A stretch of 64,000 bases of DNA from Botrimarina mediterranea. Its GTDB lineage: Bacteria > Planctomycetota > Planctomycetia > Pirellulales > Lacipirellulaceae. Each line of letters begins with the position of its first letter. The stretch's first letter is position 1. The notes under the pieces are model-generated. The model worked only from the letters and a program-made list of their open reading frames with translations, was not told where the DNA came from and made no database searches. The stretch is taken from positions 4,869,363-4,933,362 of the forward strand of contig NZ_CP036349.1 of NCBI RefSeq assembly GCF_007753265.1, given 5' to 3'. Both the position numbers and the translations under genes were made by a program. Positions 6,066 through 53,470 of this stretch are shown here, piece after piece.

Positions 6066-6141
6066 GCGAGCCGGGAAGCGTTAGCTCCCGGAGTAACGCC
6101 GGTACCTGCTTCCCTCCGAGGACTAACGTCACCCGGCTCGC
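6066..6141. repeat. Inverted-repeat element, 'GCGAGCCGG' family
   Basis: Left arm 6066-6085 and right arm 6123-6141 are imperfectly complementary; both ends carry GCGAGCCGGG / CCCGGCTCGC. The loop contains GGTACCTGCTTCC, which is nearly the reverse complement of the GGAAGCGGGTACC loop in the copies at 22290 and 41557, so this copy is degenerate and inverted. It begins three bases after the stop codon of the preceding gene. The remaining 6142-6375 holds no gene and probably the promoter of the next gene. Confidence 0.65.
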
Positions 6142-6375
6142 CTACGCTCTGCTAGCTCCACTTCTCTTCCGGTTAGGCAAACCTTGCCGCCCCCACCTTC
6201 CACAAAGTCCGGTCGTACCGGCTTTGCGGGCTTCGCCGAAAACTCTCCCCGCTCCGTCCACGCCACGCCGATCGTTGGGGCTAGACGATTATGAAAGGCA
6301 GTCGGGCGGAGCTTGGCTGCTACGCGTCACAAAGGGGGGCCTCCAGGGCCCAGTCACGGAGCAAGGAGGCTTCCG

Positions 6376-6825
6376 ATGTCGCGCTACTTCACCATCGCCG
6401 CCCTGGCGATCTGCACGCTGGGCCTCGTCGCTCAATCGGCCAACGCCAACAACGGGTGGAACGGCCGCCGCGTCGTGAGCCAACAGCGGCCTAACGACCT
6501 GTTCTACAACTCCTACGTCGGCCCGCAGCCCAGCGGCACGGCCGCGCAGATGTACGTCGCCCCGCAGCCCGTGCCGCCGGCGATGGGTCACACCTACGTG
6601 ACGTACCAGCCGTTCATGCCGCACGAGTACATGTACCAGCACCACCGCTCGTACTGGACCCACAACCCCGGCAACGGGTGGACCCGCACCAAGGTCCGCT
6701 ACCACGCCGGCGGCAACAAGCTGCAAGCCGCCGCCTTCGGCCTCTGGGACGACACGCTGTGGGGCCGGATGCGGGGCGCGAACTTCTTCGACCACCTGGA
6801 TGCGATCCCGTCCTACGCCTACTGA
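6376..6825 (+). CDS. Small secreted Tyr/His/Pro-rich protein
   Basis: 149 residues with a clear Sec signal peptide (MSRYFTIAALAICTLGLVAQ, then SANA) and a mature part rich in Tyr, His, Pro and Asn. Repeated YVxPQP-like phrases occur at 45-65 and an HEYMYQHHRSYW run near 80-95, which may bind metal or surface polymer (inference). An earlier in-frame start exists, but AAGGAGG at 6363-6369 sits ideally before the ATG at 6376 and the signal peptide begins there. It lies 109 bases before a second secreted protein of similar composition, and one terminator closes both, so they are probably co-transcribed. No known domain recognised. Confidence 0.8.
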   Translation: MSRYFTIAALAICTLGLVAQSANANNGWNGRRVVSQQRPNDLFYNSYVGPQPSGTAAQMYVAPQPVPPAMGHTYVTYQPFMPHEYMYQHHRSYWTHNPGNGWTRTKVRYHAGGNKLQAAAFGLWDDTLWGRMRGANFFDHLDAIPSYAY

Positions 6826-6934
6826 TGGCTGGGCAGTTAGGTCGCTCGGAACACCCCTCCGACGACTTGCGTCGCAGGCCCGCGTCTCAGCAATCGCTGT
6901 CCGTTTATTTCCCCCGCTAGAAGCGAGACTCGCC

Positions 6935-7288
6935 ATGCGTTCTCGGATCGTTGTCGCCGCCCTGGCGGTTGTTGGAATCGCGGCAGGCATCGCCGAAGCT
7001 GGCGGCCCCGTGATGTGGCCCCTGTACCGCGCCACCAACTACAACTGGCACGCCAACTACGCGCACCAGCAGTACGGCCAGCCCGTGGCGCTCGTCGTCC
7101 CGCCAACCGCGAACTTGCAAACGCAGTATCGCTGGGGCGTCGGTAGCAGCCGCGTCGGACGCCTCGATCACCAGTTCGGCCGCAACTGGCCGGGCCCCGG
7201 CCCTCACGGCGGCCCGTTCCAGCCCCAGCCGATCTGGCCGCAAGACACGACGCAGTTCGGCGTCTACCACGTCCGCGCTCCCTGGTGA
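6935..7288 (+). CDS. Small secreted protein, second of a pair
   Basis: 117 residues. The signal peptide MRSRIVVAALAVVGIAAG-IAEA is followed by a mature region GGPVMWPLYRATNYNWHANY that is rich in Trp, Tyr, His and Gln, then a Pro/Gly-rich tail (PGPGPHGGPFQPQP). The start at 6935 was chosen over an upstream in-frame codon near 6800 because it gives an exact signal peptide and does not overlap the previous gene. Composition resembles its upstream neighbour, suggesting a paralogous or jointly acting pair in the envelope. Function unknown. Confidence 0.8.
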   Translation: MRSRIVVAALAVVGIAAGIAEAGGPVMWPLYRATNYNWHANYAHQQYGQPVALVVPPTANLQTQYRWGVGSSRVGRLDHQFGRNWPGPGPHGGPFQPQPIWPQDTTQFGVYHVRAPW

Positions 7289-7353
7289 TCGCGACGAGTC
7301 CGATGCATCGAATCGGACGCTAATCGAATACGAAGGTCCCCCCCTTTGTGGAG

Positions 7354-7393
7354 AGGGCCGCCCGTTCCCAGGAACGGGCGGCCCTTTCTCTTT
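7354..7393 (+). terminator. Rho-independent terminator
   Basis: A perfect 15-bp stem (7354-7368 with 7371-7385, AGGGCCGCCCGTTCC) with a 2-base gap at the tip is followed by TTCTCTTTT. It ends the 6376-7288 gene pair. Confidence 0.9.
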
Positions 7394-7554
7394 TGGCGGC
7401 GGCTAAATTTTCCGTTGCGATGCCCGACACCAGCGCGTTCGGCTCAGGTTTTCACCTCTTCGTGGCTTCGCACTCAGCCCCCGGCTCGTCAGCTAGACTA
7501 CAATGGCCGAACCCTTGCAGCCGACCTGGAATCTCCACTTGCAGGCAAGACCCA

Positions 7555-8712: not shown

Positions 8713-8763
8713 CGAGTGCAGCCCTGCTGCGGCGGAAGTGTCAAACATCGACTCGCCCTAGCG

Positions 8764-10271: not shown

Positions 10272-11420
10272 GTGTCAGCAGAAATCGACCCTTCGGCCGC
10301 AGAGCCGGCTTTTTCGATGCGACAGGCGCGGGACCTGCTGCGTGACGAGGACCTACGGCCCAAGCTCTGGCTCTACTGGACCGACCTCTTGCTGAGCTGG
10401 GCCGGCTTGCTGGTCGGCATCCATTGCATGGTGGACGTTCACCTGCCATGGCCCGCACGGTTCGCGGGGTACGTAGCGGCGGTGATCCTCGGGTATCGGT
10501 GCGCTCTGTTCACCCACGAGATCGCCCACCAGCCCGAGAAGGAGTTCCGCACGTTCCGCTTCGTCTGGAACCTGTTGATCGGCATCCCCTTCTTGATGCC
10601 CTCGTTCACCTACGCGATCCATCTCGAGCATCACCGCCGCCGCAGCTACGGCACCAGCCACGACGGCGAGTACCTGCCCTTCGGCACGCGGCCTGTCTGG
10701 CATCTGCTGGCGTACCTGGGGCAGAGCTTCTTCATTCCCCTGCTGGCGATCTTCCGCTTCGGCGTGCTGACGCCGCTGACATGGCTCGGGCGGCCCGTCC
10801 GCGACTGGGTCCACCAGCACGCCTCGTCGATGATCATCGACCCCGCTTACGTCCGGCCGCTCCCTTCCGACCGCCAACTCAGCGCGATCCGTCTCCAAGA
10901 GGCGGCGACGTTCGGCTTTCTCGTCATCAGCACGGTGCTGAACGTTTGCAGCTGGATGGACATCGGCGGCGTCCGCGCGCTCGTCGAACCCTGGCTGCTG
11001 CTCAACGTTTACATCGTCGCCGTCTCGGTGATCTTCATCAACGCGGTGCGCACGCTCGGCGCCCACCGCTACTACTACGACCGCCGCGCCGAAGACGACC
11101 GACCGATGTCCTTCACCGAGCAACTGCTCGACTCGGTCAACTACCCACGACGTCCCTTCACGACAACGCTCTGGGCGCCGGTGGGCCTCCAGTTCCACGC
11201 CCTGCATCACCTCTTCCCGTCGCTGCCGTACCACTCGCTACGCGCAGCGCACCAACGCCTGATGGCGGGCTTGCCGGCCGACTCCCCGTACCGCCAAACC
11301 AACAGCCCCGGGCTGCTGCACGCGCTGGCGGACCTGTGGCGAAGGGCGAGCGAGTCGCAAACACCAAAGGGGAAAGTGGAAAGGGGAAAGCGGAAGAGCT
11401 CGGAACTCGAAGCGGCCTAA
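10272..11420 (+). CDS. Membrane fatty-acid desaturase family protein
   Basis: 382 residues. It has the three histidine boxes of di-iron membrane desaturases: H82-EIA-H86, H117-LEHH121 and H309-ALHH313, plus GAHRY at 264-267. Four or more hydrophobic spans separate them, so it should sit in the cytoplasmic membrane and introduce double bonds or hydroxyls into acyl chains; the substrate is not predictable. The last about 20 residues (TPKGKVERGKRKSSELEAA) are encoded by a genomic AG-rich repeat, so the natural end of the domain is near residue 362. The neighbouring divergent ketosynthase homologue supports a lipid role. Confidence 0.88.
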   Translation: MSAEIDPSAAEPAFSMRQARDLLRDEDLRPKLWLYWTDLLLSWAGLLVGIHCMVDVHLPWPARFAGYVAAVILGYRCALFTHEIAHQPEKEFRTFRFVWNLLIGIPFLMPSFTYAIHLEHHRRRSYGTSHDGEYLPFGTRPVWHLLAYLGQSFFIPLLAIFRFGVLTPLTWLGRPVRDWVHQHASSMIIDPAYVRPLPSDRQLSAIRLQEAATFGFLVISTVLNVCSWMDIGGVRALVEPWLLLNVYIVAVSVIFINAVRTLGAHRYYYDRRAEDDRPMSFTEQLLDSVNYPRRPFTTTLWAPVGLQFHALHHLFPSLPYHSLRAAHQRLMAGLPADSPYRQTNSPGLLHALADLWRRASESQTPKGKVERGKRKSSELEAA

Positions 11421-11464
11421 GCTTTCAAGCTTTTCCCTTTTCGGCATTCCCCTTTCCCCTTTCC
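11366..11464. repeat. AG-rich inverted repeat overlapping a gene end
   Basis: Purine arm 11366-11394 (AAAGGGGAAAGTGGAAAGGG...) pairs with the pyrimidine arm 11431-11464. It is the same family as the elements at 12605 and 16180. The left arm is inside the desaturase reading frame and the right arm ends two bases before the stop of the convergent GNAT-like gene. Confidence 0.8.
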
Positions 11465-12604: not shown

Positions 12605-12756
12605 AAAGGGGAATGCGGAAAGTGGAAAGGGGAAGGACCCGATGGCCATCGTGTCTCTAATGGCGAGAAGCGATAAACTCTCACGCCGTTTGGTTCAACG
12701 CAACCGATGGTCCCGACCCTGCGTCCTTCCCCTTTCCACTTTCCGCATTCCCCTTT
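12605..12756. repeat. Perfect 34-bp inverted repeat filling a divergent intergenic gap
   Basis: Arms 12605-12638 and 12723-12756 are complementary at all 34 positions (AAAGGGGAATGCGGAAAGTG...). The loop is 84 bases. The element occupies practically the whole 160 bases between two divergent ATGs (12599 and 12760), so it must coincide with both promoters and leaders. The AG-rich family is shared with 11366 and 16180. Confidence 0.9.
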
Positions 12757-12759: not shown

Positions 12760-13788
12760 ATGCGTTCTGTCCTCGTCACCGGCGCCACCGGCTTCATCGG
12801 CGCCCGTCTCGCCCAGCGGCTTGTCGAGCGGGGCAACCGCGTGGCTTGCCTCGTCCGGCCAACCAGCGACACGTCGCGTCTCGAACGGCTGGGCGTTGAA
12901 TGCCGGGTCGGCTCACTCGGCGACGAGGAGAGCCTCTCCGCGGCCCTGGAGGGCGTTGACGCCGTCTATCACCTCGCCGGCCTCGTCCACGCCACACGGC
13001 TCGAAGACTTCCTGGAGGTCAACGCCGACGGCGCCGAGCGGCTCTGCCGGGCCGCTGCCGTCCAATCGACGCCGCCGACGGTGCTGTCGGTCAGCTCGCT
13101 GGCGGCAACGGGGCCCTCGCTCCCCGGCCAACCGCACAACGAAGCCACGCCGCCGTCCCCCGTCTCCTTCTACGGCCAGAGCAAACTCGCCGGCGAACAC
13201 GCCTGCCGCCGGCTCGCCGATCGCGTTCCGCTGTCGATCCTCCGCCCGCCGGTGGTCTTCGGCCCCGGCGACCGCGACGGCCTCTTGCTCTTTAAGACGC
13301 TACGAAAGTTCCCGATCCACTTCGTGCCGCAGATGAAGGGCCTGCCCCTGTCGCTGATCTACGTCGACGACCTCGTCGCAGCGATGATCGCCGTCGCCGA
13401 GCACGGCGAGCGCGTCGCCACCCCTACCGATCCCGATAACCCCGCCGAGCCCAACGACCCCCGCGGCCTCTACTTCGCCGCCGACCCCACCGAGTCGTCC
13501 TACGCCGACATGGGCCGCCTGGCCGCCGCGGCCCTCGGCAAAAAGATCGTGGTGATCCGCCGCCGTAAGTACCCGTTCTTACCGGTCGCGATCGCCGGCG
13601 ATGTCATTGGCCGCATCAAAGGCAAAGCCCCTCTCTTCGGCATGGACAAGCTGAGAGAAGCCTCGGCGAGCGGCTGGGTCTGTGACCCGACGAAGATCAT
13701 GACAACGCTAGGCTGGAAGCCGGCGGCTTCGTTGGGTGAGCGTTACGAGCAAACCCATGCTTGGTATCGCGAAGCCGGGTGGCTGTAA
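12760..13788 (+). CDS. NAD-dependent epimerase/dehydratase (extended SDR)
   Basis: 342 residues. The N-terminus has the Rossmann motif TGATGFIG (7-14). The SDR catalytic set is visible as the SVSSLAATG serine region (about 107-115) and Y-GQSK (Y/K about 136-140). The region RPPVVFGPGDRDG is typical of the dihydroflavonol-reductase / HpnA-like / 3-beta-hydroxysteroid group. It probably oxidises or epimerises a sugar nucleotide, terpenoid or similar alcohol; the substrate cannot be told. The ATG lies four bases after the right arm of a 34-bp inverted repeat, and no separate ribosome site is seen. It is convergent with the protease-HlyD gene. Confidence 0.85.
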   Translation: MRSVLVTGATGFIGARLAQRLVERGNRVACLVRPTSDTSRLERLGVECRVGSLGDEESLSAALEGVDAVYHLAGLVHATRLEDFLEVNADGAERLCRAAAVQSTPPTVLSVSSLAATGPSLPGQPHNEATPPSPVSFYGQSKLAGEHACRRLADRVPLSILRPPVVFGPGDRDGLLLFKTLRKFPIHFVPQMKGLPLSLIYVDDLVAAMIAVAEHGERVATPTDPDNPAEPNDPRGLYFAADPTESSYADMGRLAAAALGKKIVVIRRRKYPFLPVAIAGDVIGRIKGKAPLFGMDKLREASASGWVCDPTKIMTTLGWKPAASLGERYEQTHAWYREAGWL

Positions 13789-13792
13789 CGTG

Positions 13793-13883
13793 AATGACGA
13801 AATCCGAATGACGAATGACGAACCTGTCGGAAGCAGCACGGCCCTCCGGCAGGTTCGTCATTCGTCATTCGTGCTTCGTCATT
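13793..13883. repeat. Inverted repeat between convergent genes ('GAATGACGAA' family)
   Basis: Arms 13793-13826 and 13850-13883 match at 31 of 34 positions with a 23-base loop. Each arm is built from tandem CGAATGA units. The element starts five bases after the epimerase stop and ends 22 bases before the stop of the convergent gene, a position that fits a bidirectional transcript end, although there is no T tract. Confidence 0.85.
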
Positions 13884-13905
13884 TCTCCGACAATGTCGAC
13901 TGATC

Positions 13906-16179: not shown

Positions 16180-16272
16180 AAAGGGGAAAAACGAAAGTGG
16201 AAAGGGGATACAAGGAACGAGAGCAGGTTTGCGGGCAAGACTTTCCGCATCCCCCTTTCAACTTTCCCCTTT
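16180..16272. repeat. AG-rich inverted repeat inside an operon
   Basis: Arm 16180-16209 (AAAGGGGAAAAACGAAAGTG...) pairs with 16241-16272. It fills the 100 bases between the HlyD stop (16277) and the ATG of the M50 gene (16176), so it lies in the transcript between two genes of the same operon. Confidence 0.8.
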
Positions 16273-22270: not shown

Positions 22271-22378
22271 GGCGAGCCGGCGATATGAGGCGAGCCGGCG
22301 ACGTTAGTCGTCGGTGGGAAGCGGGTACCAGCGCCGAATACAAACGAATGACACCGACGACTAACGTCGCCGGCTCGC
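22271..22378. repeat. Perfect 27-bp inverted repeat, 'GCGAGCCGG' family
   Basis: Arms 22290-22316 and 22352-22378 are complementary at all 27 positions (GCGAGCCGGCGACGTTAGTC...). The 35-base loop begins GGAAGCGGGTACCAG, shared with the copy at 41557. A partial extra GGCGAGCCGGCGA lies just before it at 22271-22283. The element sits between the upstream terminator and lysA. Confidence 0.93.
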
Positions 22379-24657: not shown

Positions 24658-26535
24658 ATGAGCACCGCCACCCAGCCTAGTCCCTCGTCCCTGGCCCCCC
24701 GCCCCTCGTCCCTCCGCTTGGACACCATCCACCAGGGCGACTGCGTCCAGCTCCTCCGCCAGGTCGCCGACGAGTCGGTCGACCTCGCCTTCGCCGACCC
24801 GCCGTACAACATCGGCTTCAAGTACGACGAGTACCAAGACAACCATGCCGACGAGGTCTACCTCAACTGGTGCGAGGAGTGGATCACCGAGCTGCACCGC
24901 GTCGTCAAACCGACCGGCGCCTTCTGGCTGGCGATCGGCGACGAGTACGCCGCCGAGCTGAAGGTCGCCGCGCAGAAGATCGGCTTCACCGCCCGCAACT
25001 GGGTCATCTGGTACTACACCTTCGGCCAGAATTGCCGCCGCAAGTTCAACCGCTCGCACGCCCACCTCTTCCACTTCGTCAAAGACGAAGAGCTGCACAC
25101 GTTCAACGCCGCCGACCCGTCGATCCGCATCCCTTCGGCAAGGGCGTTGGTTTACGGTGACCGCCGCGCAAACCCAACGGGGCGTCTACCTGACGACACT
25201 TGGATTCTGCGTCCCCAGGACCTTCGCGAAGACGACGCCGCGTTCCATCCGCAAGACGACACCTGGTACCTGAGCCGCGTCGCGGGGACGTTCAAGGAAC
25301 GCCAGGGCTTTCACGGCTGCCAGATGCCCGAGCAGCTGCTGGGGCGTATCGTCCGCGTCAGCTCGAACGAGGGCGACGTCGTGCTCGACCCGTTCGGCGG
25401 CAGCGGCACGACGCTCGCCGTCGCCAAGAAGCTCGGCCGCCACTGGCTCGGCTTCGAGCTCTCGAGCGACTACGTCAAATACGCGACCGAACGCATCGAA
25501 GGCGTCACCAAAGGCGACGAGTTGCACGGCCCCGCCGACCCAGTCCGCAGCGCGCCCACCACTGCCGCAGGGCGCAAGCTCAAAGGCCATCCGATGGCCG
25601 AAGCCGCGAGCGAGGCGAGCCGTAAGCGTCAGCGCCCGGAGGAACCCGCGAACGGTTCTCCAATCACAGAGCGTGTATCCACTTCAACTCCGGTCGCTGA
25701 CGCTCACGGCTCGCCAAGAGCTTCGCTGCGCGAACTGACGCGTCTGGCCCTCGTCAAAGCCTTCCACACCGCCAGCGCCGGCGCCTCGCTCGACTGGCTC
25801 TTGTGTCGTCCCGAGCTACAAACCACCTTCCACACCGCCTGTGCCGAAGCGGGCCTCATGGGCTCCGCCTACGAGTGGAACCGCGAGCTCCTAAAACTCC
25901 GCAAGTCCGGCGCGCTCGGCAAGGGAACGAAGGACACGGCCCACACCACGAACCCTCACGCCTCAAGCCTCAAACCTCAAGCGGCGCACGCCGCCGAGAT
26001 CGCCTGGGCCAAGGTCCGCGCGAAACACCCGGGCGCATCGCTCGATGATATGCTCTGCGACCCCCGCAAGCTCGACCTCTTCGACAAAGCCGCTAGGCAA
26101 GCGGCGCCCGGTTGCGACGTGAGCGACTACCGCTGGGAGGCCCTCCGGCTCCGCAAGTCGGCCAAGACGCACAAGGCCGAGGCCGCCCAGTACGACTACG
26201 TCGTCGAGAAGCCGCTCGGCAGCGTGCTCGCCGAGCGGCCCAAGAAGCTCACCGCCCGCGCCGCAAAGACGCTCACCAGCGTTGGCGGCGTCTACCTCAT
26301 CACGACCGACAAGAAGATCACCGAGGGCCTGAGCGGCTACATCGGCGCCGCGGACGACCTCGGCGAACGCCTCGCCACGCACCTCAAGTCATCGCGCGGA
26401 GAAACCTACTTCAGCGTCATCGCCGACAACACACTCCCCAGCTCCGACTACCGCGACGCGCTACGCTGGAACCTCGTGCATCGGCTGAAGCCGACGCTGT
26501 CGGTGGATTTGCTTGATGAGAGTGCGACGCTGTGA
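24658..26535 (+). CDS. DNA methyltransferase (DPPY type) fused to a GIY-YIG-like domain
   Basis: 625 residues. Residues 22-285 form a site-specific N4/N6-type methyltransferase with motif IV DPPY (47-50) before motif I FGGSGTT (246-252), the beta-class order. A linker follows (290-360), then two copies of a 45-residue unit: SLDWLLCRPELQTTF...EWNRELLKLRKS (378-417) and SLDDMLCDPRKLDLF...YRWEALRLRKS (461-501). Residues 540-615 look like a GIY-YIG nuclease domain: GVY (544-546), YIG (561-563), R571 and H575, but R603 stands where the metal-binding Glu is expected. The N-terminal extension and two linkers are encoded by genomic repeat units. It is divergent from the DUF2513-like gene. Confidence 0.87.
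   Translation: MSTATQPSPSSLAPRPSSLRLDTIHQGDCVQLLRQVADESVDLAFADPPYNIGFKYDEYQDNHADEVYLNWCEEWITELHRVVKPTGAFWLAIGDEYAAELKVAAQKIGFTARNWVIWYYTFGQNCRRKFNRSHAHLFHFVKDEELHTFNAADPSIRIPSARALVYGDRRANPTGRLPDDTWILRPQDLREDDAAFHPQDDTWYLSRVAGTFKERQGFHGCQMPEQLLGRIVRVSSNEGDVVLDPFGGSGTTLAVAKKLGRHWLGFELSSDYVKYATERIEGVTKGDELHGPADPVRSAPTTAAGRKLKGHPMAEAASEASRKRQRPEEPANGSPITERVSTSTPVADAHGSPRASLRELTRLALVKAFHTASAGASLDWLLCRPELQTTFHTACAEAGLMGSAYEWNRELLKLRKSGALGKGTKDTAHTTNPHASSLKPQAAHAAEIAWAKVRAKHPGASLDDMLCDPRKLDLFDKAARQAAPGCDVSDYRWEALRLRKSAKTHKAEAAQYDYVVEKPLGSVLAERPKKLTARAAKTLTSVGGVYLITTDKKITEGLSGYIGAADDLGERLATHLKSSRGETYFSVIADNTLPSSDYRDALRWNLVHRLKPTLSVDLLDESATL
25614..25715. repeat. Inverted repeat carried in frame inside the methyltransferase gene
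   Basis: Arms 25614-25641 and 25688-25715 agree at 26 of 28 positions; both ends read GGCGAGCCGT / ACGGCTCGCC. It belongs to the same loose family as the intergenic elements at 6066, 22290 and 41557. It encodes the linker between the methyltransferase core and the repeat units. Confidence 0.85.
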
Positions 26536-27056: not shown

Positions 27057-27318
27057 AATAAAGGTGCTCTTTCGCTGGCGGATCGATGGCACGCAAAACA
27101 ACCCTGGGACTAGATCGCGCGGGTTGTAGCCTAAAGTCGACTATGGAGGCAAGATGTTCTAGCTCTTCAATCGGTTGTTGAGGACACATTCCCGTGTTCG
27201 CCGCCAAGCACGCCCCCGCCCGAGTCGACGACATAGCGACTCCTTTGCGTGGCCAAAAGCAAGCAAAGCGCCGCTCTAATGCCGAGAAAGGCGACCCCTC
27301 GCCTGAGCTCCACAGTTC

Positions 27319-27387
27319 GTAGGTCAGGCTATGCCTGACGCCCCACCAACTCGATCCGGCGTGTGCGTCAGGCACAGCCTGACCTAC
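27319..27387. repeat. GTAGGTCAGGC inverted repeat, copy 1
   Basis: Arms 27319-27341 and 27365-27387 match at 22 of 23 positions. Each arm is itself a small palindrome (GTCAGGC-NNN-GCCTGAC), so the element can fold as two nested or three-way hairpins. The spacer CCCACCAACTCGATCC is shared with copies at 29366, 29724 and 30237. Confidence 0.9.
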
Positions 27388-27442
27388 GGATCTGGTATTC
27401 ATGCACAACGGTTTCACAACAAACGGCAGCCGTTTATAAAAG

Positions 27443-27568
27443 GCCCCGGAGGGGCGGCAGCAGCCCGGCGAAGGGAGTTGCTGCCGCCCCTCCGGCGCTT
27501 CTCGACTTACGCGTCGCTTCTCACCAGGGGCTCGCGCCCCGGGCTACGCGCTGCCGCCCCTCCGGGGC
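27443..27568. repeat. GGAGGGGCGGCAG inverted repeat
   Basis: One left arm (27443-27460) can pair with either of two right arms (27481-27495 and 27551-27568). The family also occurs at 43869-43989 at the end of the Rieske gene. Confidence 0.8.
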
Positions 27569-29365: not shown

Positions 29366-29434
29366 GTAGGTCAGGCTGTGCCTGACGCCCCACCATCACG
29401 ATTCGGCTTGAGCGTCAGGCACAGCCTGACCTAC
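29366..29434. repeat. GTAGGTCAGGC inverted repeat, copy 2
   Basis: Arms 29366-29388 and 29412-29434 are complementary at all 23 positions. It lies between the PEP-CTERM gene and the next small gene on the same strand. Confidence 0.93.
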
Positions 29435-29445
29435 TGAAATCAGCC

Positions 29446-29727
29446 ATGCCAAAAATGGGTCGGTCAACTCGATGGCTTATTGCAGCAGTGCTCGGTCTGT
29501 TCCTCTACGTCGGATCGTACCTCCACCTGACCCTTCAAGGCGCCTACGTGCCCGGCGTCGATGGAGCCAGTGGGCCAAAGAGTTACCGCTGGGCGCCGCG
29601 GAATTTTGTCCGAGCTAATGGGACCATCAAGTACGAGTTGGCGTACTTCTACGCGCCCTTGTACATCCTCGACTCTCGCCTTTGGCACGTGCACCTGGAT
29701 GCTGCCGGCGGACCTCTCTCCCCGTAG
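29446..29727 (+). CDS. Small hypothetical membrane-anchored protein
   Basis: 93 residues. An N-terminal span (WLIAAVLGLFLYVGSYLHL) anchors a short extracytoplasmic part rich in Tyr (YRWAPRNF, YELAYFYAPLYILDS). No family recognised. It begins 12 bases after a repeat element, and its TAG stop is the TAG of GTAGGTCAGGC, the first bases of the next element; the last four residues (PLSP) may therefore be an altered end. Lower GC and weak codon bias, as in its neighbours. Confidence 0.6.
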   Translation: MPKMGRSTRWLIAAVLGLFLYVGSYLHLTLQGAYVPGVDGASGPKSYRWAPRNFVRANGTIKYELAYFYAPLYILDSRLWHVHLDAAGGPLSP

Positions 29728-29779
29728 GTCAGGCTGTGCCTGACGCCCCACCAACTCGGTCCACTGTATGCGTCAGGCT
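29724..29779. repeat. GTAGGTCAGGC element, copy 3, right arm truncated
   Basis: The left arm 29724-29746 is intact and identical to copy 2; the right arm is reduced to GCGTCAGGCT (29770-29779). It touches the stop codons of both flanking convergent genes (29725-29727 and 29784-29786). Confidence 0.85.
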
Positions 29780-29783
29780 GAAC

Positions 29784-30218
29784 TTAGCGAGTGTAAGGAT
29801 ACGGGTATTTGCCGACATGCAGTAGTTGCTTCCAAGTCGGGGCGTAAGTCGTATTGAGGATCGTTCGCACCTCGTCAGGACTCAGGGCTGCACACCGTAG
29901 GTCGATCGAGTCGATCATCTCAAACCAGTCAGGCAGGCTCGCCCGTTTGTCGTGCGGCAACCACAGAACAAGCAAAGGGACGAGCCCGATGTTGTGTGCG
30001 TGCCCGCCAGCAACTAGGTAGAGTTCGCCTTCTGCGGGCACTCCCTCGACGAGTTTCGCAAAGTTCGTTCGCACGAACTCCATGAAATTAACCTCTCGAT
30101 CGATGTCACCGCTGACGAACCGAGGGGGAGTGAAGTCGATGACCGTGTAATCGCGATCGCTTGCGTCACCCGTCAGGACGTACCCGAAAATGCTGGCCAT
30201 ACAATCAATCCCAAACAC
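29784..30218 (-). CDS. Hypothetical protein
   Basis: 144 residues from a GTG at 30218; an ATG at 30200 is an alternative with GGGA at a suitable distance. The protein is soluble and mixed alpha/beta, with SGDIDREVNFMEFVRTNF and GHAHNIGLVPLLVLWLPHD. No family recognised. It is convergent with the small membrane protein and flanked on both sides by GTAGGTC elements. Confidence 0.65.
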   Translation of the reverse strand: MFGIDCMASIFGYVLTGDASDRDYTVIDFTPPRFVSGDIDREVNFMEFVRTNFAKLVEGVPAEGELYLVAGGHAHNIGLVPLLVLWLPHDKRASLPDWFEMIDSIDLRCAALSPDEVRTILNTTYAPTWKQLLHVGKYPYPYTR

Positions 30219-30236
30219 GATGCCGCTTATAGCTCG

Positions 30237-30305
30237 GTAGGTCAGGCTGTGACTGACGCCCCACCAACACGATCCGGCGTGTGCGTCAGGCAGAGACTGA
30301 CCTAT
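30237..30305. repeat. GTAGGTCAGGC inverted repeat, copy 4
   Basis: Arms 30237-30259 and 30283-30305 match at most positions (differences at the inner GTGACTGAC / GCAGAGACTGAC). Spacer as in copy 1. It lies between two minus-strand hypothetical genes. Confidence 0.88.
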
Positions 30306-32350: not shown

Positions 32351-32435
32351 TGTAGGAGGCGTCTCCGACGCCGATTACGGTATCCAATCCCAAACGGCAC
32401 GGAGCGCGAAATCGGCGTCGGAGACGCCTCCTACA
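32351..32435. repeat. Perfect 26-bp inverted repeat between araD and araA
   Basis: Arms 32351-32376 and 32410-32435 are complementary at all 26 positions (TGTAGGAGGCGTCTCCGACG...). The 33-base loop carries ACGGTATCCAATCCC. It sits in the transcript between two operon genes. A short tandem AGAGGCTAGAGGCTAG follows toward araA (32311-32328). The same family occurs at 38134. Confidence 0.93.
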
Positions 32436-38118: not shown

Positions 38119-38133
38119 GGTTCATGCTGTTCG

Positions 38134-38219
38134 GTGGGAGGGGTCTCCAGACCCCGATAACGCGCACCATACCGTTGCGACCAAGCGACCGTAATCGGCG
38201 TCTGGAGAAGGCTTCCCAC
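38134..38219. repeat. Inverted repeat of the GGCGTCTCCGACGCC family, degenerate
   Basis: Left arm 38134-38158 (GGTGGGAGGGGTCTCCAGAC...) and right arm 38194-38219 pair with about five mismatches. Loop and flanking CCGATAACG / GTAATCGGCG resemble the perfect copy at 32351. It lies between divergent genes (TRIC and pta). Confidence 0.75.
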
Positions 38220-41536: not shown

Positions 41537-41556
41537 TCGCGAACCACGACAGAGAG

Positions 41557-41632
41557 GGCGAGCCGGCGACGTTAGTCGTCGGTGCGAAGCGGGTACCAGG
41601 GTTCCACCGACGACTAACGTCGCCGGCTCGCC
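41557..41632. repeat. Perfect 28-bp inverted repeat, 'GCGAGCCGG' family
   Basis: Arms 41557-41584 and 41605-41632 are complementary at all 28 positions; the 20-base loop begins CGAAGCGGGTACCAG, as in the copy at 22290. It lies between convergent ackA and the ABC ATPase gene. Confidence 0.95.
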
Positions 41633-41656
41633 GTCATTCGTTCGAGCAGCGCTACG

Positions 41657-44063: not shown

Positions 44064-45851
44064 ATGTCCGATACCCCCGAGTTCTTCACCCGGCTGGCGC
44101 GACTCCTGAACTCCGGGCAATCGCGGAGCGTGCTGTTGGGGGGCGCGATCCACGACCTCTTCTGGGATGGCGAGCGGCACACGCCGCTCGTGCCATTCTT
44201 GCTCAAGAAGACCAAGACCAACGGGCTCTTACCGCTGGTCTACGAGCTCAACGGTCCCATCCGCATCGCCGACGCCGACCGCGACCGACTGCGCGGCGCC
44301 TGGGTGGAGTGGAAGTCGGGCGTCGATCCGGCGTTGCTCGGCCTGGAGGACCTGCGCAAGAAGAGCTCGCAGCTTGAGTTCCACCAGCAGGAGTTCGATC
44401 GCCACCTCACCAGCGCGATCGGCTCGCCGACCGCGGCGTTAGAGCTTTTGCGGCAACTGACGATCTGCTCCCGCACGGCGCTGCGCGAGCACCTGCTGAT
44501 CATTGTCGAGGCGGCCGACATGCTGCTGCCCGAGACCGGCGACCTTTCGCGCCTGAACGACGCGCAGCTCCGCCGCATTAGTATCGTCGAGGACTGGTTC
44601 AGCGACCCGGACTTTGTCGCCGGCGACGACTCGGTCGTGTTGTTGGCCGAGTCGCGGAGCATGGTGCACAGCCGCGTTGCGCGGATGCCGCAGGTGCTGT
44701 CGGTCGAGGCGCCGGCGCCGACGCTTGGCGAACGCGTACGCTTCATCGACGAGTTCATAAAGACCGCCGAACGGAAGCCGCGGCTCTGGTCCACGCAAGA
44801 AGCCCTCGGCGAATGCACCGCGGGGCTCTCCCTGCATGCGCTGCGACAGATGCTCGCCGGCGCCGCATACTCGGGCGATCCGCTCACGCCCGCGGCGGTG
44901 TTTGGCAAGGTCGAAGAGTTCATCCAGACGCGGCTCGGCGACGATGTCGTCGAGTTCAAGAAGCCCTCGCACCGGATGACCGACGTCATCGGCTTCACGC
45001 AGCTCAAGAAGTTCCTCACCGAAGAGTTGATGCCACGCTTCAAGGCGGCGGCCGACACGGCGCTGCCGGGCGCGGCGGTGGCCGGCGCGATCGGCGGCGG
45101 CAAGACGTTCATCTTCGAGGCGGTCGCGGCGGAGCTCGACCTGCCCGTTCTGGTGCTGAAGAACATCCGCAGCCAGTGGTTCGGACAGACCGACGTCATC
45201 TTCGAACGGCTCCGCGCGGTGCTCGAAGCGCTCGGCAAGGTCGTGATCTTTGTCGACGAAGCCGACACACAATTCGGCCGCGTCGACGCCAATGCCCACG
45301 AGACCGAGCGCCGCCTCACCGGCAAGATCCAGCAGATGATGAGCGACCCCAAGCTCCGCGGCGAGGTGCTGTGGCTACTGATGACGGCGCGGATCCACCT
45401 GCTGTCGCCCGACATCCGCCGCCCAGGACGCGTCGGCGACCTGATCATCCCGGTGCTCGACCCAACGGGCGACGACCGCGTCGCGTTCATCAACTGGGTG
45501 GTCGATGCGATCAAGCTCGACGAAGCCCAACTCGAGAAGGAGGGCCTGACGCGTCTTGACCTCGTGCAGCGGATGAACGACGAGCTGCTGCCGCCAGAGT
45601 ACTCGGCCGCGTCGTTCGCGTCGCTCCGCTCGTACCTTAAGGCGACGCAGCCCAAGACCTGGGCCGAGGTGATGACCGCCGTCCACGACCAACTCCCGCC
45701 CGCCATCGGCCCGACGCGCGAGTACCAAACGCTGCAAGCCCTAGTGAACTGCACGAGGCGATCGCTACTCCCCAATCCCGACTCGGCGCTCGAAGACCGC
45801 GTCGAGTGGGAACGGCGGATCCGGGAACTTGAATTAGAAGGGATCAGCTAA
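44064..45851 (+). CDS. AAA ATPase with an N-terminal degenerate ATPase-like region
   Basis: 595 residues, cytosolic. Residues 1-260 resemble a second, P-loop-free AAA-like domain (LLGGAIHDLFWDGE, LLIIVEAADMLLPE, VVLLAESRSMVHSR), like the tandem layout of Ycf46-type proteins. The C-terminal domain has Walker A G341-AIGGGKT348, Walker B VVIFVDEADTQFG (about 392-404) and the RIHLLSPDIRRPGR sensor/Arg-finger region. Probably a remodelling ATPase; partner unknown. The TAA stop is part of TAACCGCCAAG, the first bases of the next repeat element. Convergent with a small secreted protein gene. Confidence 0.85.
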   Translation: MSDTPEFFTRLARLLNSGQSRSVLLGGAIHDLFWDGERHTPLVPFLLKKTKTNGLLPLVYELNGPIRIADADRDRLRGAWVEWKSGVDPALLGLEDLRKKSSQLEFHQQEFDRHLTSAIGSPTAALELLRQLTICSRTALREHLLIIVEAADMLLPETGDLSRLNDAQLRRISIVEDWFSDPDFVAGDDSVVLLAESRSMVHSRVARMPQVLSVEAPAPTLGERVRFIDEFIKTAERKPRLWSTQEALGECTAGLSLHALRQMLAGAAYSGDPLTPAAVFGKVEEFIQTRLGDDVVEFKKPSHRMTDVIGFTQLKKFLTEELMPRFKAAADTALPGAAVAGAIGGGKTFIFEAVAAELDLPVLVLKNIRSQWFGQTDVIFERLRAVLEALGKVVIFVDEADTQFGRVDANAHETERRLTGKIQQMMSDPKLRGEVLWLLMTARIHLLSPDIRRPGRVGDLIIPVLDPTGDDRVAFINWVVDAIKLDEAQLEKEGLTRLDLVQRMNDELLPPEYSAASFASLRSYLKATQPKTWAEVMTAVHDQLPPAIGPTREYQTLQALVNCTRRSLLPNPDSALEDRVEWERRIRELELEGIS

Positions 45852-46012
45852 CCGCCAAGACGCCAAGAGCGACAGGGATCGCCAGGAAGTTTATTAAGAC
45901 AGGATTTGCAGGATCGACAGGATATTGGTTTTTTCAACTCATCGTGTAAATCCTGTTGATCCTGTCTAATTTTTTCTTGGCGATCTTTGGCGCCCTTGGC
46001 GTCTTGGCGGTT
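45849..46012. repeat. TAACCGCCAAGACGCC inverted repeat, copy 1
   Basis: Outer arms 45850-45871 and 45991-46012 match at 21 of 22; inner arms GACAGGATTTGCAGGATC / GATCCTGTTGATCCTGTC around 45900 and 45950 pair also. T-rich TTTTTTC follows at 45971-45977. It fills the gap between two convergent genes and provides the TAA of the AAA ATPase. Confidence 0.9.
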
Positions 46013-50238: not shown

Positions 50239-50547
50239 TCAGGCGGGCTCCAGCGCCAGCAGCGTCACGCCGCGCGTCATGTCCGCGGTCTGCTGACGGA
50301 ACGCGTCCATGTGCGGGGCGGCGAGGTGGGCCTCCAGGGCGGCGACGCTTTCCCACTTTTCCACGACAACGACCGCGTCGTCTCCCGCCGGCGCCTGCAC
50401 GGGGATCGACGTCGGCGTATCGATCGCGGCGCCGTACTCGAGGCAGCCGTCCTCGGCGAGCACCAGCGGCGTCAGCTCGGCGAACGCGGCGAGGAAATCC
50501 TCACGCCGGGCGGGATCGACTTTGAGCGTGGCGATGACGTGGATCAT
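50239..50547 (-). CDS. Quinol/antibiotic-biosynthesis monooxygenase (ABM) domain protein
   Basis: 102 residues from the ATG at 50547. A ferredoxin-like alpha/beta ABM fold: IHVIATLKVDPARREDFLAA, EDGCLEYGAAID, VVVVEKWESVAALEAHLAAP, followed by a helix and beta strand. It resembles YgiN-type small cytosolic oxygenases acting on quinols or similar; no metal or cofactor motif is needed in this family. The frame stays open upstream to 50856 but this passes through the repeat and another gene's strand, so the ATG at 50547 is chosen. Two genes (ABM, proB) run in the same direction. Confidence 0.88.
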   Translation of the reverse strand: MIHVIATLKVDPARREDFLAAFAELTPLVLAEDGCLEYGAAIDTPTSIPVQAPAGDDAVVVVEKWESVAALEAHLAAPHMDAFRQQTADMTRGVTLLALEPA

Positions 50548-50567
50548 GAATTCTCTCGACTGCTTGG

Positions 50568-50706
50568 TAACCCGAAGACGCAAACGCTCTTGACGGGATG
50601 AACAGGATCGACGGGATGAACCCTGAAAGTTCTCGATCCTGGTAATCCTGTCAAAAAAGAACCGCCGTGGCGATCCCTGACGCGTTTGGCGCGTCTTGGC
50701 GGTTAC
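50568..50706. repeat. TAACCGCCAAGACGCC inverted repeat, copy 2
   Basis: The right arm (50687-50706, read on the minus strand as TAACCGCCAAGACGCGCC) provides the TAA of the degenerate protease gene. The left arm (about 50568-50588) is eroded, but inner pairs GACGGGATGAACAGGAT / ATCCTGGTAATCCTGTC remain. Same family as 45849 and 53313. Confidence 0.8.
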
Positions 50707-51950
50707 AGACCGACGGGCGCCAGACGGCCCGACATCAGGTCCAAGAGCCGCGACCGCACCAACGACACGGGCAGAGCGTAGCTCTCCGTGCGCCCCGCAC
50801 GGGCGATGTTGAAGGCGACCACGCGCCCGTCGAGGTCCACCACCGGGCCACCGCATTCATTTGGCGAGAGCACCGTGTCGTGCTGCAGTGCGGTTGGGAA
50901 ACCGAAGCGGCGTTCGCTGAGATCGCCGCCGAGATGATTCTGGTAGTGGGCCCGTTGCTCGGCGGGGTTGGGCGCCCAACCGTGGAGGGTCGCGACGATC
51001 TCGAGCCTCTCGTCGCCGCGCTGAACGGTGAGTTCGACGCGGTCGCCCGGGTTGCGATCGCCGATCGCTTCCTTGAGGCCTTGCGGCGAGGTCGTTGGCG
51101 TCCGACCCACGGCGGTGATGAAGTCGCCCGGTTGGATTCCCGCCTGCTGCGCCCCGCCACCATCGGTAACGGTCTCGATCCGCACGCCGATGACGCCGTC
51201 TTCCGTCGGGACATAGTTGAGATCGATCTGCACGCCAAGGAAGCCGGGACTCTTGTCGATCTCACGCGGGAGGACGCTGACAACGCCCACCGCGATCGGG
51301 TCGCGGCTCAGCCCCACTGTCGCCAGCCAGTCGCCCGCCTGGAGGTCGCCGCTGTTTTCCGTCGAAGACGCCGGCTGAGCCGCAACCGACGCTGGGGTCG
51401 CGGGCCTGATCGCGACCGTCTGGGTCTTCTCGACGGTCGGCTGACTCCCGAGGTTGAGCGTGGGCAGGTTCTTGGCGTCAAGCTTGAGCATCGCCAGATC
51501 GGTAGCGATATCGACGCCAACGATCGCCGCGTCGAACTCGCGACCGTCACGCAGACGGCATTGGACCTCGCCCTGGATGAGGCTCGCCTTGGTGACGACC
51601 CAGCCGTCGGGTCCGACGATCCCGCCGTAAGCGATCCGCCGCTTGCCGACCCGCACCTCGACGGTCGCTTCGCGGACCTCGGCGACCACCGGGCGGAACA
51701 CGGCGCGCAGGTGGGGCCCATTGGTGTAACGCGACTGCGGCACCCAGAGGCTGTTGAACAGCGACTGGATCGACTCGCTAACGACGTCTTGCTCTGGCGC
51801 CTCCGCGGGCGCCGCTTCCGCCGTTGGGGGCTCGGTCGCGGGCGCCTCGGCCAAGGGAGTCTGGGCGTGGAGCGCCGGGGCCTGGAGCGTCGCGCCGATG
51901 GCCAGAAGCACCAGCGTTAGCCAGCGGTGATCGAATCGTCCGTTCGTCAT
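50703..51950 (-). CDS. Trypsin-like PDZ protein with degenerate triad
   Basis: 415 residues. Signal peptide, Ala/Pro/Glu-rich spacer (about 30-55), then an S1 HtrA-like barrel and a C-terminal PDZ domain (GIRIETVTDGGGAQQAGIQPGDFI as GVRIETVTDGGGAQQAGIQP..., about 255-335). The His block reads GPDGWVVTKASL, without His, and the Ser block is PNECGGPVVDLDG, with Cys in place of the nucleophile. The Asp block is VDIATDLAMLKLD. A Cys nucleophile could be active, but not without His, so the protein is probably a non-catalytic partner. It is in a two-gene operon with the next entry, its ATG overlapping that gene's stop (ATGA). Confidence 0.88.
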   Translation of the reverse strand: MTNGRFDHRWLTLVLLAIGATLQAPALHAQTPLAEAPATEPPTAEAAPAEAPEQDVVSESIQSLFNSLWVPQSRYTNGPHLRAVFRPVVAEVREATVEVRVGKRRIAYGGIVGPDGWVVTKASLIQGEVQCRLRDGREFDAAIVGVDIATDLAMLKLDAKNLPTLNLGSQPTVEKTQTVAIRPATPASVAAQPASSTENSGDLQAGDWLATVGLSRDPIAVGVVSVLPREIDKSPGFLGVQIDLNYVPTEDGVIGVRIETVTDGGGAQQAGIQPGDFITAVGRTPTTSPQGLKEAIGDRNPGDRVELTVQRGDERLEIVATLHGWAPNPAEQRAHYQNHLGGDLSERRFGFPTALQHDTVLSPNECGGPVVDLDGRVVAFNIARAGRTESYALPVSLVRSRLLDLMSGRLAPVGL

Positions 51951-53155
51951 CGGCGGTCCTCATTGTCGAGTCGGGCGCCGGGGAAGTCGGTCGTCGCCCG
52001 GCCGAGCCATAGCGTCAGCTCGATCTTGGTCCCTTGCCGATCGATCACGACCGGCACCCGAGTATACGGCTCGCTGTTGCGGATCGTGCGATCGACTTCC
52101 GCCAGGCTCTCCGGTTGCTTGCCATCGATCTCGAGCAGAATGTCTCCGGACAACAACCCCGCTTCGGCGGCGGAGCGGCGGGGGAAGACCTGGGTCACCA
52201 CCAGTGCGCCGTTCACTTCACGCAACGTGAGTCCGGCGAAGGGTCGCCAATCGTCGGGGTCTTCGCCATCGGGGACGCCCGTCATCCGGCCGTCGTTGAG
52301 TCGTTGCCACTCGCGGCGGAAAGCGGTGACGGGGACGTGGTAGTTACTGGTGATCTGCTCGCCGATCTTGCTGTGGATCCCGACCACCTCGCCGCGGAGA
52401 TTGAACAGCGGTCCCCCCGAGTCGCCGCCCACCAGGGTGGCGTCGGTGTTAATCATCTGGTCGTCGATCGACAGCACGCGTCCCAGGCGGACCGGCGGGT
52501 TGCGGCCTTCGACGAAGCCATTGGGCTGCCCGAGGACGACGACCCAGTCGCCCGGTTTGGGGGCTTCGGTGGCGATCGGCAGGAAGGGCCAAGCGGGGAG
52601 CGAGCCGGTCACCGCCGAGTCGGAAGAGTCATCGTCGGGCGACGGCGGCGGGACGCTGATCCGCACCATCCCGCAATCGAGTTCGTGGTTCACGCCTAGC
52701 GAGCGGCCTTTCACACGGTGGCCGTCGGGGAAGCGGACCGACACCTCACGGTTGGGTTCGATGCTGACGTGTCCCGCGGTGAGCACCAGCCCGTCGGCGG
52801 AGATGATGACGCCCGAACCGACCGAATCGTTCATCTCGATCGCCACCGTCACCGGCCGGCCGAGGGCGACCACCCGGCGGACTTGGTCCTGCAACATCCG
52901 GAGCTGTTTGACGGTCTTGGGCGGCCCGGGGCGGAGCGACTCGGCGAGCTCCGTGGGGATGGCGAGCGGGGCCGACAGCGGTTCCGCCGCGGCTTTGCTG
53001 GCGACGGTCTTGGCCAGGGGGGGCTTGGTGGCAACCGGCTCGGCGGCGCCGATGACGCCCCCAAACGCAAGCATCCAAGGCAGAATTACCGCCAAAAGCC
53101 CACCCCGCGCGCCGGCGACACGACCACGGGCTAGGAGATTACTGTACATCCGCAC
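51947..53155 (-). CDS. HtrA-like trypsin-fold protease with PDZ domain, intact triad
   Basis: 402 residues from a GTG at 53155, or 400 from the ATG at 53149. Signal peptide, then an S1C protease domain: SGVIISADGLVLTAGHV (His), DCGMVRIS (Asp), TDATLVGGDSGGPLFNL (Ser). The PDZ domain follows from about 300 (FAGLTLREVNGALVVTQVFP...LLSGDILLEIDGKQPESL). It is probably a periplasmic quality-control protease. First gene of a two-gene operon with a degenerate homologue; the overlap (ATGA) ensures coupled synthesis, which suggests a heteromeric complex (inference). Confidence 0.9.
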   Translation of the reverse strand: MRMYSNLLARGRVAGARGGLLAVILPWMLAFGGVIGAAEPVATKPPLAKTVASKAAAEPLSAPLAIPTELAESLRPGPPKTVKQLRMLQDQVRRVVALGRPVTVAIEMNDSVGSGVIISADGLVLTAGHVSIEPNREVSVRFPDGHRVKGRSLGVNHELDCGMVRISVPPPSPDDDSSDSAVTGSLPAWPFLPIATEAPKPGDWVVVLGQPNGFVEGRNPPVRLGRVLSIDDQMINTDATLVGGDSGGPLFNLRGEVVGIHSKIGEQITSNYHVPVTAFRREWQRLNDGRMTGVPDGEDPDDWRPFAGLTLREVNGALVVTQVFPRRSAAEAGLLSGDILLEIDGKQPESLAEVDRTIRNSEPYTRVPVVIDRQGTKIELTLWLGRATTDFPGARLDNEDRR

Positions 53156-53470
53156 TTGACAGTAAACAGGTGTTTAGCAGAATAGATGAAGGCAGCGCCG
53201 GCTTGCTTCCGACAAAGACAGCCAAAGTCAAACGCAGCAAAGTCAAACGCAGCGCCGACGCCGAATTATAGCTAACCGCTCCCAATTGAACCGCCCAATT
53301 GAGCCACCCGACGTTAAGGACGCCAAGATAACGCCAGGAAGATCATTCGGACCGGATCACCAGGAATCTACGCCGTATGGCGCCCGATTGATCCGGTAAT
53401 TCCTGTCAAAACTTGGCGATCCGTTGCGCCCTTGGCGACTTGGCGGTTCCCGAAAAAGCCTGAGGTCCCC
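53156..53470. other. Divergent intergenic region with a repeat element
   Basis: 315 bases between the protease operon and lexA, which are divergent. A degenerate TAACCGCCAAG-family element lies at 53313-53452 (right arm GCCCTTGGCGACTTGGCGGTT at about 53427-53447; inner AGGAATCT / AATTCCTGTC). I looked for CTGT-N8-ACAG and GAAC-N4-GTTC operators near lexA and found none convincing. Confidence 0.65.

Follow-up and report, generated by a model that had tools for sequence, protein, structure and literature searches.

Inverted repeats in the window

The window analysed here, a 64,000-nucleotide (nt) stretch of the planctomycete Botrimarina mediterranea (contig NZ_CP036349.1, positions 4,869,363 to 4,933,362 of the forward strand), carries long inverted repeats of several families, most of them in the gaps between its protein genes (Table 1). 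These hairpins belong to two systems: class A, composed of repetitive extragenic palindromic (REP) sequences and their head-to-head pairs (REPINs), and class B, relatives of elements in which a single small gene lies between two repeat arms. These are probably two unrelated mobile systems sharing the same gaps, the first that of REP/REPINs and their REP-associated tyrosine transposases (RAYTs), the second consisting of short, gene-less copies of one-gene transposable elements. The original prediction had taken all eight families for an unnamed, multi-family REP-like system; four of them are indeed REP-like, though of a kind already named, and the other four are not.

The predicted repeats are real in both position and arms, and the five arms said to be perfect are so (12605-12756, 34/34; 41557-41632, 28/28; 22290-22378, 27/27; 32351-32435, 26/26; 29366-29434, 23/23). 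The families can be told apart, as had been claimed, and further families exist outside the window. Scored at +1 per match and -2 per mismatch, with loops of up to 150 nt, 10 inverted repeats in the window reach at least 18, whereas 10 first-order Markov shuffles of the window give none. Sixty such repeats lie in a sample of twenty 20-kb stretches, spread roughly evenly over the same 5.87-Mb chromosome, so that the window is typical of its genome. The window has no Rfam match at the gathering score, and ARAGORN found no tRNA in it.

That the repeats occupy most intergenic gaps proved too strong a statement. Using gene calls from our own simple gene-calling script, 11 of the 39 window gaps of at least 50 nt contain a repeat scoring at least 15, a number that rises to 15 of 39 when degenerate copies are included (16 of 41 for gaps of at least 30 nt, degenerate copies again counted), and five of the ten divergent gaps are occupied. 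One element (25614-25715) lies inside a called open reading frame (ORF), and two overlap called gene ends. Over 464 kb sampled, repeats occur in 73 of 240 gaps of at least 50 nt and 82 of 93 repeats are intergenic, with 52 in 154 same-strand gaps, 19 in 38 convergent gaps and 11 in 48 divergent gaps.

Table 1. Inverted repeats of the window (A1 to A4, class A families; F3 to F6, class B families).
Positions	Element	Basis or comparison
6066..6141	A1 (GCGAGCCGG) pair, degenerate	better-paired A1 element here in the same-genus genome G001
11366..11462	class B F3, GGAAAGN heptamer units	overlaps called gene end; no inverted repeat found there in G001
12605..12756	class B F3, arms 34/34	divergent gap; G001 orthologous place has one arm, GGATTGN units
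13793..13883	class B F6, CGAATGA units	gene-less relative of four-helix-bundle element G000:C1:5735387
16180..16272	class B F3	G001 orthologous-place element has GGATTGC units
22290..22378	A1 REPIN, 27/27	inverted-repeat score
25614..25715	A1 REPIN	within called ORF 24718-26535 (DNA methylase); different repeat family here in G001
27318..27388	A2 (GTAGGTCAGGC) REPIN, GTAG-tagged	RAYT locus L014 bracketed by same repeat
27443..27568	A4 (GGAGGGGCGGCAG) repeats	Y1 transposase L009 has same repeat on one side
29366..29434	A2 REPIN, 23/23	inverted-repeat score
30238..30304	A2, third copy, degenerate	
32351..32435	A3 (GTAGGAGGCGTCTCC) REPIN, GTAG-tagged, 26/26	absent at G001 place; RAYT locus L010 bracketed by same repeat
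38130..38219	A3, degenerate copy	
41554..41635	A1 REPIN, 28/28 core	inverted-repeat score
42583..42652	class B F5, CCAATGA units	gene-less relative of four-helix-bundle element G000:C1:312797; overlaps called gene end; other repeats in G001
45850..46012	class B F4 (CCGCCAAGACG), period 8-10	gene-less relative of GxxExxY element G000:C1:947828
45897..45967	second inverted repeat, ACAGGAT units	nested in F4 loop; similar arms bracket GxxExxY genes L285, L295
50096..50237	class B F5, degenerate	
53310..53452	class B F4, degenerate	

Class A families and their RAYT genes

The four class A families, GCGAGCCGG (A1), GTAGGTCAGGC (A2), GTAGGAGGCGTCTCC (A3) and GGAGGGGCGGCAG (A4), are REPs and head-to-head REPINs of the already-known REP/REPIN-RAYT kind. 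Singles and pairs were counted for A1, A2 and A3: in the 464 kb, A1 has 69 units in 22 pairs (20 of them head-to-head) and 25 singles, A3 has 28 units in 12 pairs and 4 singles, and A2 has 13 units in 4 pairs and 5 singles. Genome-wide, the pattern GCGAGCCGGN{8,20}CCGG has 159 matches as against 52 for the reversed control, and of the genome-wide copy counts originally suggested as a check, those for GCGAGCCGG and AAAGGGGAAAG stand above control.

The companion suggestion, that a RAYT-type transposase be sought elsewhere in the genome, led to such genes for half of the families (GCGAGCCGG, GTAGGTCAGGC, GTAGGAGGCGTCTCC and GGAGGGGCGGCAG). Pfam Y1_Tnp matches five places and the NCBIfam REP-associated transposase model four (one below the cut-off), seven places in total. 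With L013, which has an internal stop, excluded, five of six loci are bracketed by long inverted repeats within 300 nt per side, while none of 30 permuted flank pairs scored 14. L010 is bracketed exactly by A3 arms and L014 exactly by A2 arms, L011 and L012 are bracketed by GAGCC-type arms that are related but not identical to A1, and L009 has A4 repeats on one side only. The sixth gene, L016 (G000:C1:826063-826527), is RAYT-like; the GGGTGCCATGCCC inverted repeats on either side of it are identical over 36 nt and belong to a family unseen in the window. A HuH motif occurs in five of these six transposases (our own regular expression finds none in L016), the catalytic motif is of the Y..NP type in L010 and L014 and Y....Q in L011 and L012, and the GTAG/GTGG foot is present in A2 and A3 and absent in A1 and A4.

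Some further observations belong beside these loci. The excluded Y1_Tnp match (L013, G000:C1:1846890) adjoins an upstream AAGACTCACGCAAAGG inverted repeat that looks class B. Within the window, ORF 24718-26535, which contains the GCGAGCCGG element at 25614-25715, matches a DNA methylase in its first part, and two predicted genes with no Pfam match (29488-29727 and 29784-30200) lie between two GTAGGTCAGGC elements (29366-30304).

Class B families and their likely parents

The families CGAATGACGAA, CCAATGACCAA and CCGCCAAGACG form class B and are not REPs; AAAGGGGAAAG probably belongs with them. Their arms are built of short tandem (direct) repeats. Two common small gene families are often found beside arms of this kind, an association tested here: the four-helix-bundle family PF05635 has seven matches in the genome, representing six genes (one is frameshifted and split into two matches, and another has two stops), and the GxxExxY family PF13366 has six.

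Three of these genes lie between arms of window families. The PF05635 gene L022 sits between 40-nt CGAATGACGAA arms of CGAATGA units, the PF05635 gene L024 between two identical 33-nt CCAATGACCAA arms, and the PF13366 gene L028 between 38-nt CCGCCAAGACG arms, with 380-393 nt between the arms in all three. Because their arms share the units of those families, these loci are the likely parents of three window families, and they are PF05635 or PF13366 genes, not RAYTs. The arms of L024 are those of a gene-less copy in L063, save for one base of one arm, and in L022 and L024 the start codon as called falls within an arm. As an aside, at the GxxExxY loci L111, L115, L118 and L123 an arm seems to be translated, giving predicted N-termini like HRDTE or HGDTEN, a reading of CACAGAGACACAGAG-like arms.

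The AAAGGGGAAAG units are heptamers in the same style as those of the other class B families, and no parent for this family was found in the genome. With one mismatch allowed, the pattern GGAWWGNGGAWWGGGG occurs 148 times in this genome (control 52), 53 times in G001 (control 5), 31 times in G003 (control 2) and three times in G002 (control 3).

From these loci and those described below, a class B parent would be about 420-510 nt long and would consist of an inverted arm of some three to five tandem units, the gene, and a second arm. The units would mostly be 7 nt for the four-helix-bundle kind (PF05635/TIGR02436) and 8-10 nt for the GxxExxY kind (PF13366/TIGR04256), whose protein is of the PD-(D/E)XK type.

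Distribution of the one-gene layout

In a same-phylum set of 119 genomes, our own included, PF05635 is present in 58 and PF13366 in 55. Among the best loci, with the two pieces of one frameshifted gene (L021 and L023) left out and short-flank loci skipped (three of 34 for PF05635, five of 35 for PF13366), arms scoring at least 16 flank 26 of 31 PF05635 genes and 21 of 30 PF13366 genes, while 0.5% and 4.4%, respectively, of permuted flank pairs reach that score. One permuted PF05635 pair scored 198, perhaps because it joins two orthologous loci in opposite orientation, and was kept among the permuted matches.

A wider sample of named genomes gave the same layout. The best 80 of 587 PF05635 loci span many groups, including Proteobacteria, Acidobacteria, Bacteroidetes, Chloroflexi, Nitrospirae and Verrucomicrobia. 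Seventy-five had enough flank to be tested (five of the 80 were skipped), and 54 of these genes lie between inverted arms at a score of at least 14, compared with 0.9% of permuted pairs, three of 139 other ORFs from the same loci, and four of 107 sampled genes shorter than 900 nt from our own genome. PF13366 was sought in 36 genomes reached through the named PF05635 loci and found in 23, where 18 of 24 loci score at least 14 (1.6% of permuted pairs; six of 30 loci skipped). Thus the layout of a gene between inverted-repeat arms is shared across many bacterial groups. On viral contigs we found two GxxExxY loci only.

The periodicity of the arms differs by gene family. Named-genome PF05635 arms match themselves at 0.65 for lag 7 and 0.60 for lag 14, other lags giving 0.22-0.35, and 42 of the 54 armed loci have a lag-7 match of at least 0.5 with an arm of at least 17 nt; in the same phylum the lag 7 and 14 values are 0.54 and 0.55. 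PF13366 arms are raised at lags 8-10, to 0.33-0.40 in named genomes and 0.33-0.38 in the same phylum. The five RAYT arms show no lag peak of the class B kind.

Insertion, copies and turnover

Of the 28 plasmid records found to carry PF05635, 22 have cyanobacterial names. Filled plasmid sites were compared with empty counterparts at seven places. The whole element is inserted at three of them. A 428-nt element in plasmid C of Trichormus variabilis is cleanly missing from Nostoc linckia and Microchaete, with GTAAT on both sides and aligned flanks of about 98% identity. TTCTA flanks a 417-nt element in pNsp_a of Nostoc ATCC 53789 on either side (one adjacent base differs), and pNsp_c of that strain lacks the element. 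Finally, a 506-nt element in pNsp_c is missing from Nostoc C052, with no clean repeat. Over about 415 nt, L342, L359 and L361, elements from three different sites among the seven, are 78-83% alike, and their 250-nt flanks share nothing by blastn.

All nine plasmid PF05635 copies that were scored, from the seven sites, are heptamer-armed (nine of 12 fetched filled loci, L340, L344 and L353 being left out). Partial forms occur as well: at the first plasmid site Nostoc C052 has one arm and part of the gene, and at the TraM site, where two other plasmids have a full element, Nostoc ATCC 53789 (L348) has an armed element too short for the gene. The annotated plasmid loci lie between protein genes, not in ribosomal RNA (rRNA), and two plasmid GxxExxY loci have arms (scores 21 and 16). 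GxxExxY genes were also seen inside gene runs, between fabD and fabG and after radA, in L357 (Sphingomonas) and L355 (Bacteroides), of which only L355 has inverted arms.

Elements can persist in place while their units change. The places at 12605 and 16180, and two aligned sites beyond the window, are still occupied in G001 by an element or by one of its arms. The units there are GGATTGC or GGGATGT/GGAAGTG, as against GGAAAGN or GGAATGC in the window's genome; the loop aligns well at 411858 and partially at the other three sites compared. Unit number varies too: at the first plasmid site the left arm has five heptamers in one copy (L342) and three in another (L354). Places thus persist, and their units change and are quickly recopied. 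Elsewhere, relatives have other families at the same place, or none. Two side observations concern such places: G001:C6 has about 11.7 kb between the sequences that flank the CGAATGACGAA element (window 13782-13904), and where the window has its elements at 16180, 22290 and 25614, G003 has inverted repeats of another family, of GGGGAGGGGTTAGGGG type, as does G001 at 25614.

Proteins and arms

Three PF05635 proteins were scanned and matched no nuclease family; one of the family, L018, has weak matches to Avd (E 4e-4 and 0.0016). PF05635 is described as resembling Avd, the reverse-transcriptase partner of diversity-generating retroelements (PMC10053308). Its relatives in the PDB are 2gsc and 2rld, the former being the structure of a PF05635-family protein from X. 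campestris, and the title of the 2gsc paper, as cited in PMC10053308, speaks of five four-helix bundles. GxxExxY proteins have no sequence relative in the PDB up to E 1; D, E and K residues fitting PD-(D/E)XK are invariant in 24 of 24 rows of their alignment, and judging from these residues they could cut.

The heptamers of different loci have little in common. Across 42 loci a weak consensus, GYNAGKN, reaches 3.99 bits against a null maximum of 3.59 in 20 shuffles (42 of the 54 above-threshold loci, with arms of at least 17 nt and a lag-7 match of at least 0.5).

The original prediction had noted that paired arms stay complementary while diverging between copies, and had read this as selection for pairing or recent gene conversion. 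With units found by single-arm homology and paired afterwards (GGAGGGGCGGCAG, CCAATGACCAA and AAAGGGGAAAG being outside the test), covariation is clear for GCGAGCCGG, where the likeness of arms is 0.867 within elements and 0.696 between them (0 of 2000 permutations), and weak for GTAGGAGG (0.911 and 0.875, p 0.0075), while in GTAGGTCAGGC, CGAATGACGAA and CCGCCAAG the arms within an element are no more alike than those of different elements. The GCGAGCCGG result could simply reflect subfamilies spreading as whole pairs. Selection for pairing is thus not borne out, as covariation is partial and arm mismatches have no sense-strand G-U bias.

How the class B elements may move

The gene-less copies are likely to descend from gene-bearing elements or to be mobilised by them. 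Several results weigh against this picture or parts of it. Twenty-one of the 75 named-genome PF05635 loci fall below threshold, although two of these, from Xanthomonas, do have degenerate heptamer arms. In our own genome no AAAGGGG-armed parent was found, the frameshifted PF05635 gene (L021/L023, G000:C1:1896752-1897067) has an arm score of only 8, and the GxxExxY loci L029 and L030 score only 13 and 10. A clean join is seen at only three of the seven plasmid events and a 5-nt direct repeat at only two; one plasmid GxxExxY locus lacks inverted arms (score 8), and a search for empty sites for two of the three plasmid GxxExxY loci gave nothing usable, leaving the GxxExxY kind with no empty site. 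At the two G001 sites outside the window the two arms no longer match well. The genomes G050 and G117, rich in PF05635, have no gene-less copies in 120 and 60 kb, and G126 has few; gene content thus fails to predict gene-less copies, and amplification must therefore need something more. Finally, in 39 of the 54 loci, chosen as for the consensus and with arms of at most 80 nt, heptamer similarity is not correlated with protein similarity (Spearman 0.045, Mantel p 0.20), and arm mismatches lack a sense-strand G-U bias (24 v 36, 23 v 17 and 21 v 20, in hand-listed subsets with 53, 27 and 41 loci passed). As a separate observation, L021/L023 has degenerate AGGGACC-like heptamers on both sides.

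The absence of a protein-heptamer correlation speaks against sequence-specific recognition, and the absence of a G-U bias against an RNA hairpin under selection; selection on the arms at the RNA level was set aside on the latter ground. Since the sequence of the units turns over rapidly and independently of the protein, there is about an even chance that the protein acts on its own arms by reading their period and hairpin shape more than their base sequence. These same two null results lead us to favour, tentatively, recognition of period and fold in single-stranded DNA. Equally tentatively, we suggest that the element moves as a folded single strand and that its insertion, duplicating a short stretch of the target, would be carried out by its own nuclease in the GxxExxY kind and by a host or reverse-transcriptase partner in the four-helix kind.

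The gene might instead be cargo, with an unrelated transposase, from the host or another element, moving such arms and the four-helix or GxxExxY protein serving, for example, to protect or process the hairpin transcript. The existence of gene-less copies, the independence of heptamer sequence from the protein and the lack of nuclease matches in the scanned PF05635 proteins would all fit, but free cargo would not, in many groups of bacteria, come repeatedly from the same two families of small genes, nor does cargo sit easily with the invariant D, E and K of the GxxExxY alignment, and we think this explanation rather unlikely. Less likely still is movement through RNA, in which the element transcript would be cut at its hairpin, as RNase III does with rRNA intervening sequences, and an Avd-like four-helix protein would pass the RNA to a reverse transcriptase for copying and insertion. 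The resemblance of PF05635 to Avd (PMC10053308), seen weakly in L018, and the reported RNase III excision of an rRNA intervening sequence (PMC4990558) speak for such a route; the unbiased arm mismatches speak against it, as does the absence of a reverse transcriptase gene between the arms of the elements examined, the rest of their genomes not having been searched.

Slippage of short units with hairpin-templated copying could, in principle, form class B repeats in place, or they could be terminators, and the changes in unit number between close copies (L342 and L354) and in unit sequence at orthologous places would then be expected. Whole elements precisely inserted where relatives have an empty site, related elements whose flanks have nothing in common, and the many class B repeats in same-strand and divergent gaps make an immobile origin very unlikely. 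The least credible explanation is that of the original prediction, in which every one of the eight families is REP-like and owes its movement to RAYTs. It accounts well for the four class A families, and the internal-stop Y1 gene L013 does have a class B-type repeat upstream. Class B arms, however, lack the GTAG foot, consist of tandem repeats with a period that the five RAYT arms do not share, and bracket PF05635 or PF13366 genes, and the likely parents of CGAATGACGAA, CCAATGACCAA and CCGCCAAG are not RAYTs.

Broader meaning

Whichever way the elements move, 'REP-like' intergenic hairpins within one genome can belong to different systems. Returning to class B as short copies of one-gene transposable elements, a wider proposal, which we rate somewhat below even, is that minimal transposable elements of a few hundred bases come in two pan-bacterial classes, with PF05635 and GxxExxY as their hallmark genes, arms that are self-renewing tandem repeats (of 7 nt and of 8-10 nt) and a protein that reads period and fold; rRNA intervening sequences, orphan heptamers and many REP-like hairpins would then be the same thing. 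Under this proposal a unit could change in concert through all units and copies, since the protein would ignore its sequence, and about five heptamers may carry the pentameric ring formed by the four-helix protein.

Such a view suggests an origin for repeats that have been catalogued but left unexplained, and gives a role to test to two common genes whose only names are 'four helix bundle protein' and 'GxxExxY protein'. The rRNA intervening sequences, whose mobility has long been suspected, find a place in it as well. Movement without a recognised transposase is made directly testable in cultured cyanobacteria, where both filled and empty sites are known.

Comparison with known systems

Class A resembles described REP/REPIN-RAYT systems (the GTAG superfamily, PMC3733652; class 3 TnpAY1, PMC6006769) in its many copies, its singles and head-to-head pairs, the GTAG/GTGG foot of A2 and A3, and the HuH-motif tyrosine transposases adjoining its repeats, while class B has only the inverted layout in common with them. 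In R. baltica, too, different REP families are reported to coexist with a plethora of tyrosine transposases with flanking repeats (Di Nocera 2013, PMC3733652). Class 3 TnpAY1 enzymes are described mainly from Planctomycetes, Acidobacteria and Proteobacteria (Quentin 2018, PMC6006769), and the Y....Q motif of L011 and L012 fits them.

The closest relatives of the PF05635 elements are the intervening sequences of 23S rRNA (S23p/IVP; PMC4990558), with which they share the protein family, a length of about 430 nt, terminal inverted repeats and tandem heptamers in the 5' arm; encoding S23p/IVP is a feature of the PF05635 kind only. For one such sequence, reported to be excised by RNase III, a 28-bp terminal stem and a tandem run of three heptamers ahead of the S23p ATG are described, and older proposals of mobility are cited (PMC4990558); its heptamers are presented there for one species, not as a general feature. 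The elements described here differ in lying between protein genes and on plasmids, in being able to insert with short direct repeats and in having gene-less relatives. Given the shared protein, rRNA intervening sequences are likely to be members of the same class that landed in rRNA.

Orphan heptamers likewise resemble class B, being 7-nt tandem units that are mostly intergenic and, in Xanthomonas, often in inverted pairs (PMC4692102, PMC4679880). Two Xanthomonas genomes are reported to have 186 and 183 GGGAATC heptamer patterns, with 70 and 75 inverted-pair cases and four units commonest, and others are GGGGA(C/T)T in Nostoc (both PMC4692102) and TAACTGA in Beggiatoaceae (PMC4679880). In two other Xanthomonas species, L199 and L244 have GGGAATC-type heptamers on both sides of a PF05635 gene, too degenerate for the score. 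In the two papers such heptamers are connected with G-quadruplexes or a possible regulatory role; neither S23 nor 23S appears as a term in PMC4692102, and 23S is absent from PMC4679880. Among open-licence papers, we found no description of PF05635 or GxxExxY as genes of repeat-armed mobile elements outside rRNA, which is weak evidence of absence.

With miniature inverted-repeat transposable elements and insertion sequences, class B shares gene-less copies with inverted ends and, in two of the seven plasmid events, target duplication; unlike insertion sequences, its parents encode PF05635 or PF13366, neither of them a recognised transposase. The same distinction applies to the TIRtrons and TIRYTs (PMC3733652), which also have a small gene between long inverted repeats that form dispersed families: their gene is a tyrosine transposase, while here it is PF05635 or PF13366.

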